A DNA stretch of 33,370 bases from a virus: positions 1 through 33,370 of the IMG/VR virus record IMGVR_UViG_3300044822_000057; one strand, given 5' to 3'. Shown here piece by piece: positions 13,909 through 18,057 of this stretch. Below the pieces are notes generated by a model. It ran no database searches. It saw only the letters and a list, made by a program, of their open reading frames with translations, and was not told where the DNA came from. The translations under genes and the position numbers were made by a program. Each line of letters starts with the position of its first letter. Position 1 is the stretch's first letter.

Positions 13909-15579
13909 GTGCAAATTCCGAAAGAGCCGGAGGCTCGCTATGCGTTCTTCGAGGACATCGCGCGCAAGTGCATGGCGTCTCGAGGCGAGCGCCGCCGCGC
14001 GTACCAGGCTTTCCGCAATTACTACATGTACGGCTGCGACGGCACATCGGACTTCCCGGCGCGCTTCAACAAGATCTATCCGCACATCGACCAACTGACG
14101 AGCTTCCTTTACAGCCAGGAGACGACGCGCTTCTCGACGCAGTTGGGCGTCAGCGTCTCGAACTTGGAGTTCCCAAAGGTCGACCCGATCAATCAGGGTA
14201 TCAACGACGAGTGGAACAACTCGAACTCGGACATCGTGTTCGGCAACTCGCTCACTTGGAGCCTCGTGTACGGCTCCATGTTCATCAAACCGCGCTGGAA
14301 GATCAACGGCATTGAACCTTTCCCGGTCGAGCCGCATAACTTCGGCGTGCTGCGCGAAGACTCGCCGATGCTGTCGTCGCAAGAAGCGTTCTCGCACTGC
14401 TACTACATGACCCGCTCGCAGTTGTTCGACGAGTTGGCCGCGTGCAATCACCCGCGTGCCGAGCAGATCAAAAACGAGGTCGTGGCCGGACCGAAGCAGA
14501 ACGCAGCCGCGCTGACGCCGCTTGATCGCATCATCACGAGCCAGACCAACATTGGCCTCACCGGCAACGTGGTCGGCAACGTCGACTTCAACTTGGCGCT
14601 CATCAATCGCTATGGACCGAAGGTCAGCGAAGACATGCTGGAGATGCAGGAGTTGTACATCTACGACTCGGAACTGTCCGACTATCGTGTCGTGACGATG
14701 GGCGAGCCGTACGTGACCATCTTCGACCGGCCTCTGGAGTCGATGTTCCTGAAAAACGACCCGCCGTTCGTTCAGATCTGCCCGCTGCCGGCGTACGACT
14801 ATTTCTGGGGGTTCTCCGAGGTCGAACGGCTGATTCCGATTCAGGAAATCCTGAACACGCGATGGGAGGAGCTGCGCCACATGATGGCAAAGCAAGCCCG
14901 CCCGCCGCGCGCGTTCATCGGTTTCACCGGCATCACGGATGAGATCGCGGGCGCGTTCGACACACCGGACGGCCAAGTGTCAACCGACATGCCTGGCGCG
15001 AAGGTCGACTCCATGTCGCCGAACATCCCCGACGACCTGTGGAAAGACTTGGATCGCATCGACATGATGTTCGAGGACACGTCCGGCATCAATAACGTCA
15101 TGAGCGGCAAGGGCGAGAGCGGCGTGCGCTCGAGCGGCCACGCCTCGCAGCTCGCGCGCTTGGGCAGTTCGCGCGTGAAGAAGCGGGCCATGATCGTCGA
15201 GGACAGTCTGGAAAAACTCGCGACGATGTACTTGAAGATCAAGCAGAAATACGATACACGTCGTTACCGAGAGAGCGGCGACGACGGAACGGAGTTTATC
15301 GCGAACCAGTTCACGACTGACTTTGTGGTCAAGGTGGACGGTCACTCGAACTCTCCGATTTTCGTCGAGGATCAGACGCAGCTTGCGTTCGAGGCGTTGA
15401 AGGTCGGCGCGATCACGAAGGAGCGGTTGCTGGAGCTCATCAATTTGCCGATGAAGCCGCAACTGCTCAACGACCTGAAGACGAAGATTGAGCCCGCCGC
15501 AGCGGCGAAAGAGCAGCAGGACCGGCAAGACAAAATTGCCGGCATTCAGTCAGCAAAGGAGAGGAAACATGGCACATAA
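13909..15579 (+). CDS. portal protein
   Basis: 556 residues from GTG 13909. The size, the position after the terminase and the sequence style fit a short-tailed-phage portal: helical N-terminus (ARKCMASRGERRRAYQAF), FPARFNKIYPHIDQLTSFLY, a conserved-looking SLVYGSMFIKPRW, and a helical crown region (SSGHASQLARLGSSRVKKRA). It forms the 12-mer ring through which DNA enters and leaves the capsid. The last 40 residues are Ala/Lys/Gln-rich. The stop lies inside the following micropeptide gene. Confidence 0.85.
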   Translation: MQIPKEPEARYAFFEDIARKCMASRGERRRAYQAFRNYYMYGCDGTSDFPARFNKIYPHIDQLTSFLYSQETTRFSTQLGVSVSNLEFPKVDPINQGINDEWNNSNSDIVFGNSLTWSLVYGSMFIKPRWKINGIEPFPVEPHNFGVLREDSPMLSSQEAFSHCYYMTRSQLFDELAACNHPRAEQIKNEVVAGPKQNAAALTPLDRIITSQTNIGLTGNVVGNVDFNLALINRYGPKVSEDMLEMQELYIYDSELSDYRVVTMGEPYVTIFDRPLESMFLKNDPPFVQICPLPAYDYFWGFSEVERLIPIQEILNTRWEELRHMMAKQARPPRAFIGFTGITDEIAGAFDTPDGQVSTDMPGAKVDSMSPNIPDDLWKDLDRIDMMFEDTSGINNVMSGKGESGVRSSGHASQLARLGSSRVKKRAMIVEDSLEKLATMYLKIKQKYDTRRYRESGDDGTEFIANQFTTDFVVKVDGHSNSPIFVEDQTQLAFEALKVGAITKERLLELINLPMKPQLLNDLKTKIEPAAAAKEQQDRQDKIAGIQSAKERKHGT

Positions 15580-15610
15580 GCGGAAGCACAAGCGTAAGAT
15601 GCGACGCTAG
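15569..15610 (+). CDS. 13-residue polycationic micropeptide
   Basis: ATG 15569 follows AAAGGAGAGGAAAC, one of the best ribosome sites in the window, and encodes MAHKRKHKRKMRR, then TAG. Ten of 13 residues are Lys, Arg or His. It overlaps the end of the portal gene by 11 bases. A second micropeptide of the same kind follows 69 bases later. The strong initiation signal and the paired arrangement argue against chance. Possible roles (inferred): DNA or RNA binding, scaffold nucleation, or capsid-interior neutralisation. Confidence 0.55.
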   Translation: MAHKRKHKRKMRR

Positions 15611-15679
15611 CGCCACGGCGGCGCTGCAACGGCTCGAATCCCAAGAGGGGGGAAACATAGCCCATGATAGGAGACGAAA

Positions 15680-15724
15680 ATGGCCCGTAAAAAGCGCCGC
15701 GGTCGCAAGTCGAAGCGGAAGTAA
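15680..15724 (+). CDS. 14-residue polycationic micropeptide
   Basis: ATG 15680 follows ATAGGAGACGAAA, again a good ribosome site, and encodes MARKKRRGRKSKRK, then TAA. Ten of 14 residues are Lys or Arg. It ends 22 bases before a strong intrinsic terminator, so it is the last gene of the portal transcript. The sequence differs from the first micropeptide but the charge plan is the same. Confidence 0.55.
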   Translation: MARKKRRGRKSKRK

Positions 15725-15746
15725 TTCCCTTCGGGTTCCACCCAGG

Positions 15747-15775
15747 AGGCCACTCAACCGAGTGGCCTTTTTCGT
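15747..15775 (+). terminator. intrinsic terminator
   Basis: Nine-base stem AGGCCACTC / GAGTGGCCT with an AACC loop (15747-15768), followed by TTTTCGTTT. Ends the terminase-portal-micropeptide transcript. Confidence 0.85.
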
Positions 15776-15805: not shown

Positions 15806-15831
15806 TTGACTTATTGAATTTTCCGTAGGAT
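15806..15831 (+). promoter_or_regulatory. possible promoter for the capsid genes
   Basis: An AT-rich stretch between the terminator and ATG 15843 holds TTGACT and TAGGAT, but only 14 bases apart, short for a sigma-70 promoter. A promoter is expected here because the terminator lies just upstream; the exact site is uncertain. Confidence 0.25.
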
Positions 15832-15842
15832 GCTGCGCGGCA

Positions 15843-16247
15843 ATGAGTGCGTCTCCGGAAGTGATGAGTGCGTTGGGCGGCGGTGGCCCGCCCGCACCGC
15901 CGCCCGGTGGCGCACCGCCGGAACCCGCGCCCGCCGCCGCTCCCATGGCGGCGCCGCAGAAGCCGGAAGGTCAGCAAGAGGGCGCCAAAGTCGACGTACG
16001 CATGGCGATGAAGATGCTGGAGAAGGCACTTCCCGCGTTCGGCACCGGCAACAAGAATGGCGATGCCATCTTGAAGGCGCTCGGCATCCTCGGCAAAGCC
16101 TTCGGCAAAGACGAGGAGGAAACCGATCAATTGATGCCGGCTGAGATCAAGCAGTTGCTGCAAGGTCTCTCCGGTCCTGGGCAGCCGCCGAAACCGCCGG
16201 TCGCGAAACCCGGCGCGGCGCCGCCGCCACGTCCACCTGGAATGTAG
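15843..16247 (+). CDS. Pro/Ala-rich virion or assembly protein
   Basis: 134 residues. Both ends are Pro/Gly-rich and probably disordered (GGGGPPAPPPGGAPPEPAPA; KPGAAPPPRPPG), around a helical centre (VRMAMKMLEKALPAFGTGN, KALGILGKAFGKDEEE). It starts the capsid operon. The layout suggests an assembly or decoration protein; no family assigned. An in-frame ATG at residue 8 is an alternative start. Confidence 0.6.
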   Translation: MSASPEVMSALGGGGPPAPPPGGAPPEPAPAAAPMAAPQKPEGQQEGAKVDVRMAMKMLEKALPAFGTGNKNGDAILKALGILGKAFGKDEEETDQLMPAEIKQLLQGLSGPGQPPKPPVAKPGAAPPPRPPGM

Positions 16248-17049: not shown

Positions 17050-18057
17050 ATGCCTGTTTTTGGTAGCGGCATTATCCCCTCGGGCTCGATCGCGAGCGAA
17101 CTGACGTACGTGACCCGCCGCGCGTTCATCCCGAAGATGGTCGTGCAGCTCTACAACACGTCGCCGCTCGCCGCCGCGCTGCTCGCCAACGCGCAGACCG
17201 CATCTGGCGGTGTCTCGAGCGTCACGGTCCCGGTCCAAGGCCAGAACTTTGTGAACACGCAGTGGTCGGACTACTCCGGCTCGTTCGCGCAGCCGATCGC
17301 ACAGCAGGGCGCGTTTGTCGCCGAGTTCAACTTAAAGTCGCTCATCACGCCGATTCCGTTCCTTGGGATGGAAGGAGCGGTGCAGTTGGATCACGCTGTG
17401 ATCCCGCTCATCGAAGCGCGCATGAACGACGCGACCAACAACATGATGGACGCGGCCTCGCAGGCGCTGTACAACAACTACACCGTTGCGAACCAGTTTA
17501 TCGGCCTGCCTGGCGCGATCGACGACGGCACCAACTTGGTCACGTACGGCAACATCAACCGCACGGCCAATGCGTGGTGGCAGTCGAAGCGTTACGCCGC
17601 GGGCGCGGTCGCGCCGACGCGCTTGAACCTGATCCAGTACATCGCAGGCGTCAACAAGTACGGCGCCGAGATGCCGACCATGGGCATCATGGGCTTCGGC
17701 ACATGGACTCGCCTCGCGCAAGACATCATCGGCTCGGAGTCGTACCAGATCCAGCCCGGCAACGGCTTCGATTCGGACGCCGACCGGCCGCGCGCCGCGT
17801 TCCGCGCGCTCGATGTCGCGGGCGTGCCGATCTATGCCGACCCTTACTGCCCGGAAGGGTTGCTGTACCTCATCAACACGAACTACTTGAACCTGTACGT
17901 GCATGACCAGGCGTCGTTCGCGTTCTCCGGGTTCGAGTCGCTGCTCTCCAACTACCAGTTGGGCTACATCGGCATCGTGTTGACGCTCGCGGAGCTGGTC
18001 CTCACGAAACCGAAGTCGTGCGGCATCGTCACGGGTTACACGTACCTCACGATCTAA
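17050..18057 (+). CDS. major capsid protein
   Basis: 335 residues. Likely HK97-fold: an N-arm-like start (ELTYVTRRAFIPKMVVQLYN), then PLAAALLANAQTASGG, a spine-helix region (AVIPLIEARMNDATNNMMDA), a central domain with NRTANAWWQSKR, and an end ELVLTKPKSCGIVTGYTYLT. The size is typical of coat proteins, and the order scaffold, coat, connector is typical. An AGGAG ribosome site is present. It is expected to be the most abundant virion protein. Confidence 0.85.
   Translation: MPVFGSGIIPSGSIASELTYVTRRAFIPKMVVQLYNTSPLAAALLANAQTASGGVSSVTVPVQGQNFVNTQWSDYSGSFAQPIAQQGAFVAEFNLKSLITPIPFLGMEGAVQLDHAVIPLIEARMNDATNNMMDAASQALYNNYTVANQFIGLPGAIDDGTNLVTYGNINRTANAWWQSKRYAAGAVAPTRLNLIQYIAGVNKYGAEMPTMGIMGFGTWTRLAQDIIGSESYQIQPGNGFDSDADRPRAAFRALDVAGVPIYADPYCPEGLLYLINTNYLNLYVHDQASFAFSGFESLLSNYQLGYIGIVLTLAELVLTKPKSCGIVTGYTYLTI

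Follow-up and report, generated by a model that had tools for sequence, protein, structure and literature searches.

In the usual picture of tailed phages, DNA is packaged bare together with small cations, and the counter-ions for dsDNA are normally metal ions and polyamines of the host. The J protein of microviruses is small, basic and encoded beside capsid genes, and it is longer than the phage peptides described here and has a capsid-binding end. In phiX174, J is present in about 120 copies and coats replicative DNA (PMC13386984). Adenovirus mu, a basic peptide of 19 residues in its mature form, is carried at 100-300 copies per virion and helps to condense the viral DNA (PMC7998265). As to control of such proteins, the nucleic-acid-binding product of T4 gene 32 represses its own mRNA via a pseudoknot located 5' of the ribosome site (PMC535899).

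The window analysed here, the whole of a virus record of 33 kb (33,370 nucleotides), has terminase, portal and major capsid genes of tailed-phage type, and two tandem micro-ORFs, MP1 and MP2, lie between portal and capsid genes. Their products share with mu a very short length (less than 20 aa) and a mostly basic composition, mu being a late virion DNA-condensing peptide of a dsDNA virus (PMC7998265). However, mu (protein X) is cut by a protease from a larger precursor, whereas each phage peptide has a separate gene of 10-15 codons, which at each locus brings a start, a stop and a ribosome site of its own. The J protein of phiX174 and other Microviridae offers a second likeness as a DNA-binding phage protein (PMC13386984), but the phage to which it belongs has an ssDNA genome and a T=1 head, whereas the present peptides are those of a tailed phage and come in pairs. 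Because both precursor origin and virus type were tested with these outcomes, assignment to mu or J is withheld, and no sequence relation to either is claimed; our best guess is that the phage peptides at most work like them. A phmmer comparison of the joined peptides with PDB chains returned nothing, which is weak evidence for peptides so short and of such low complexity, and a partial literature collection held nothing on point concerning phage basic micropeptides. The head module of the Kuraviruses phiEco32 and SU10 has a portal and adaptor distantly related to those of the window, but neither phage has a basic micro-ORF downstream of the portal, unlike the window family.

Layout of the locus and its transcript boundaries

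All features lie on the plus strand. The portal gene (13909-15579, 556 aa) is a distant SU10/phiEco32-like relative (phrog_104, E 2e-6), with a weak Pfam SU10_portal match (E 7e-6, under the curated cut-off), and the adaptor is likewise SU10-like (SU10_adaptor, E 3e-16). MP1 (MAHKRKHKRKMRR, 13 codons, 15569-15610) overlaps the portal stop codon (15577-15579), which lies inside it in a different frame, and is preceded by the ribosome binding site AGGAGAGG (15557-15564). MP2 (MARKKRRGRKSKRK, 14 codons, 15680-15724) follows, with AGGAG (15669-15673) as its ribosome site, and the spacing between site and start is good for both. A sequence-only reading of this DNA had placed the two micro-ORFs within 15569-15724 and assigned a ribosome site to each, as found here. 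Its figure of about 75% basic residues stands if histidine is counted (77% for MP1); lysine plus arginine alone account for 8 of 13 residues in MP1 (62%) and 10 of 14 in MP2 (71%). The net charges are about +8 and about +10, respectively.

Behind the pair stands an intrinsic terminator (15744-15771; a 12-pair stem, then T-rich DNA), predicted to end the terminase-portal-micropeptide transcript. Beyond it lie the first gene of the capsid-side operon (15843-16247, 134 aa, no assigned function) and the major capsid protein gene (17050-18057; phrog_9953, E 1e-33). A tentative capsid-operon promoter, TTGACT-14-TAGGAT (15806-15831), is weak in the window and absent from the list of the consensus promoter scan. 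Across relatives, 124 of 133 loci have TTGACN at most 260 nt past the last micro-ORF, against the 20% expected from shuffles. The terminator in the window and this element in the relatives thus indicate that the micro-ORFs close the terminase/portal transcript and that the capsid operon has its own start; both the terminator and the closing position of the pair had been proposed in the sequence-only reading.

MP1 and MP2 are the only ORFs of their kind in the window (9-20 aa, ATG, SD, at least 60% K/R; both strands scanned). No ORF of this description appeared in 60 dinucleotide-preserving shuffles of the window, and 1.36 Mb of related loci held no comparable ORF (at least 55% K/R) away from the post-portal spot. 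The shuffles, the absence elsewhere in family DNA and the in-frame codon selection described below rule out a chance origin, which had been thought unlikely from the outset. A fused or frameshifted portal tail is ruled out as well, as in L006, L007 and many other relatives a separate gene or stretch intervenes between portal and MP1; that no real long gene carries the micro-ORF motif also argues against it. MP1 and MP2 are genuine standalone coding genes.

Conservation and coding selection across the family

The sequence-only reading had made conservation in related phages part of its refuting test, and the micro-ORFs passed this part: relatives with portals 49-69% identical keep their reading frame, their start and stop codons, the ribosome sites and the charge. 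Four viral contigs (L001-L004, portals 66-68% identical) and two public uncultured phage genomes (MW202825 and MW202753, portals 50-53% identical) each have two such ORFs in the same place, and the annotations of the two public genomes omit them. Searches with the portal and capsid alignments each gave more than 570 relatives, of which 80 per search were examined. Among 135 usable loci, a count that requires enough sequence past the portal and includes some repeat fetches of one contig, at least two basic micro-ORFs were present in 96, one in 25, a longer basic peptide of 19-25 aa in five and none in nine; with identical portals removed (n=113), the corresponding figures are 78, 22, 5 and 8. 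The caller accepted an ORF only if it had a ribosome site and a K/R share of at least 35%, and so may have overlooked a few genuine copies. A blind scan of the viral collection for a ribosome site followed by M-A-R-K-x-R-K-x-R-K, ignoring neighbouring genes, gave at least 120 stretches, and all 114 scored matches in newly fetched loci sit at this family's locus, 107 of the matches listed lying beside a family portal and seven beside family capsid-side genes. Phages with a related terminase have no micro-ORFs, as judged from the whole of Hydrogenobaculum phage 1 and parts of Vibrio 1.182.O, Pseudoalteromonas H6/1 and MW202692.

In a portal tree built by a quick method and rooted at its midpoint, loci with two copies occur on either side of the deepest split, which makes the pair probably old; this distribution suggests that it is ancestral and was then lost or replaced a few times. 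The phage family that carries it is large, uncultured and mostly known by metagenomics, and a search of phage records with the portal returned two uncultured genomes only and no cultured member. Bins named betaproteobacterium, Legionella and Alphaproteobacteria also contain portals of the family (L165-L168), a weak indication of its host range.

In-frame pN/pS, computed over distinct sequences of 13 codons, is 0.51 for the 42 of MP1 and 0.44 for the 29 of MP2, and the same DNA in other frames gives 1.4-1.7. The identical peptide MARKARKGRKARK is encoded by ten different DNA sequences. Since a charge filter was used in collecting the ORFs, conservation of charge is partly built in, but the excess of third-position change is not. 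Among relatives, K and R exchange freely, length drifts and small residues serve as spacers, and the motifs of the two genes remain distinct, MP1 often reading MY...RKTRR and MP2 ARKARKGRKARK. What is selected looks like charge with small spacers, as would be expected for electrostatic binding of nucleic acid.

RNA between the micro-ORFs

In a large sister clade, the gap between the micro-ORFs contains a short hairpin (recognised by eye) and then an H-type pseudoknot, located, for example, at L007:4817-4857 and L034:6882-6922. Over 47 distinct sequences, its 13 pairs form in 86.7% of cells. The motif by which these sequences were chosen spans some of stem 1 and, in stem 2, the loop side, which biases the conservation of the covered letters and leaves the partner side free. 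Double-change cells number 46, against 12.7 in shuffles and 1-17 in slid controls, and the covariation score is 0.273, against 0.124 in shuffles and at most 0.135 in slid controls. A model built from these sequences also matches L102 (3160-3198; E 2e-5), which lies outside the training set and where the element stands before MP1; it has no match in the window or in other tested members of the window's clade. No Rfam family is reached at gathering score for 12 sources, and the pseudoknot is a candidate new RNA family. The middle pairs of stem 2 are tandem U-G/G-U or U-U/U-C. The sister-clade arrangement is reminiscent of T4 gene 32 in that a pseudoknot lies 5' of the ribosome site of a putative nucleic-acid-binding gene; however, this pseudoknot is unrelated in sequence, and the product that it may regulate is a peptide of 10-15 aa.

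A candidate third micro-ORF in the gap of L006 and L007, MAAFPL(T)K, was dropped, as the pseudoknot explains the stretch. These two sister-clade loci also carry, between portal and MP1, a conserved gene of 50-60 aa (L006:6638-6800, L007:4573-4737) with the motif ADQPRV and a basic end, which is absent in the window and has no PHROG match. Instead of the pseudoknot, the window's clade has a run of 4-6 G at a near-constant distance ahead of the last micro-ORF (29-34 nt; 16 of the 17 loci examined); in the window it is GGGGGG at 15647-15652, 33 nt before MP2.

Candidate functions and variants of the pair

The sequence-only reading had listed neutralisation of packaged DNA, RNA binding, nucleation of scaffold or portal assembly and action on the host as possible roles, and each is treated here as a candidate. 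Taken together, the data allow a tentative model, to which we give somewhat less than even credence, in which standalone polycation genes supply peptides that bind nucleic acid, chiefly phage DNA at or in the head, with the sister-clade pseudoknot as operator. The peptides, probably unstructured, would be translated from the last part of the terminase-portal transcript, as heads assemble and DNA is packaged, and would bind electrostatically to nucleic acid, chiefly the phage DNA at or inside the head, possibly easing packing or ejection. DNA is proposed as the target because the genes lie beside terminase and portal, where the DNA being packaged is the obvious polyanion; adenovirus mu (PMC7998265) and phiX174 J (PMC13386984) are precedents for small viral polycations that act on DNA in this way. 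A very high copy number is not evident, as the micro-ORFs are on the portal transcript and not on that of the capsid. In the sister clade, the pseudoknot just before the second ribosome site probably serves as a translational operator and restricts how much peptide is made, perhaps because it binds the peptide itself; since the window has no pseudoknot, the operator idea does not apply to it as written. Translation in vivo, nucleic-acid binding, location in the virion and the operator role are what we infer. A broader proposal is that an ancestral set of two genes for 10-15 aa polycations, accompanied in many members by the pseudoknot, would provide a whole tailed-phage family with dedicated counter-ions of viral origin for dsDNA packaging; we consider this rather unlikely.

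The peptides might instead bind acidic parts of the portal, terminase or scaffold and aid assembly of the portal vertex or motor with no role for DNA. Their constant place beside the portal, with which they are cotranscribed as far as gene order shows, and the distinct MP1 and MP2 motifs, as if each had its own partner, are in keeping with such cofactors, but free K/R swaps and drifting length are easier to reconcile with a requirement for charge than with a protein interface, and we consider this role rather improbable. Much the same low standing is given to the idea that they are arginine-rich regulators that act on ribosomes or on the late mRNA of the phage and whose own target is the conserved intercistronic RNA. 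Covariation in the sister-clade pseudoknot (46 double-change cells versus 12.7 shuffled), the match in L102 outside the training set and a layout like that of T4 gene 32 (PMC535899) all point this way; however, the window's clade has the peptides without the pseudoknot, so the two are separable.

Action on the host, as poisons of membrane, nucleoid or translation, seems more doubtful still. Short Lys/Arg-rich peptides are sometimes antibacterial. The host is also the target of many phage small proteins, as reviewed (PMC11323111); however, the place of the genes between structural genes is fixed across lineages, host-takeover genes usually being sited in early regions, and the peptides show no hydrophobic face of the antimicrobial-peptide kind. 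Finally, it is very improbable that the act of translation alone matters, the micro-ORFs being attenuator leaders that sense charged Arg/Lys tRNA or couple to the terminator before the capsid operon. Basic codon runs do stand directly ahead of the terminator, and pairing of the G-run with the terminator arm is feasible in three loci, but this pairing is not conserved beyond chance, and free synonymous change and K/R exchange are unlike codon-sensing leaders, in which regulatory codons and antiterminator pairing would be conserved. The promoter-like TTGACN past the last micro-ORF (124/133 loci) also stands against an attenuator.

Under the favoured DNA-binding model, virion-bound peptides would mean that tailed phages can encode their own protamine-like peptides. 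As genes, the micro-ORFs would rank among the shortest standalone ones under clear purifying selection. Gene finders miss them, as their omission from two annotated genomes illustrates, and trypsin-based proteomics would miss the products because they would be cut to single residues. The conserved pseudoknot offers a cheap and ready handle on autoregulation.

Some lineages are without the micro-ORFs, so the peptides are replaceable. In L112, L121, L147 and L160, a single Met/Pro/Lys-rich peptide of 20-25 aa, for example MYGKKPMKSPMKPMKKGPMREQKRK, takes the place of the pair and may be an MP1 descendant; the longer peptide variants have no PHROG match. Three basic micro-ORFs follow the portal in tandem in L073, L154, L162 and L100, and the extra copy in L073, L154 and L100 has a cysteine near its end, in a terminal SCK or SCR. 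In L004 (7850-8170), the micro-ORFs are separated from the capsid operon by an extra ORF that by eye resembles an HNH-type endonuclease.
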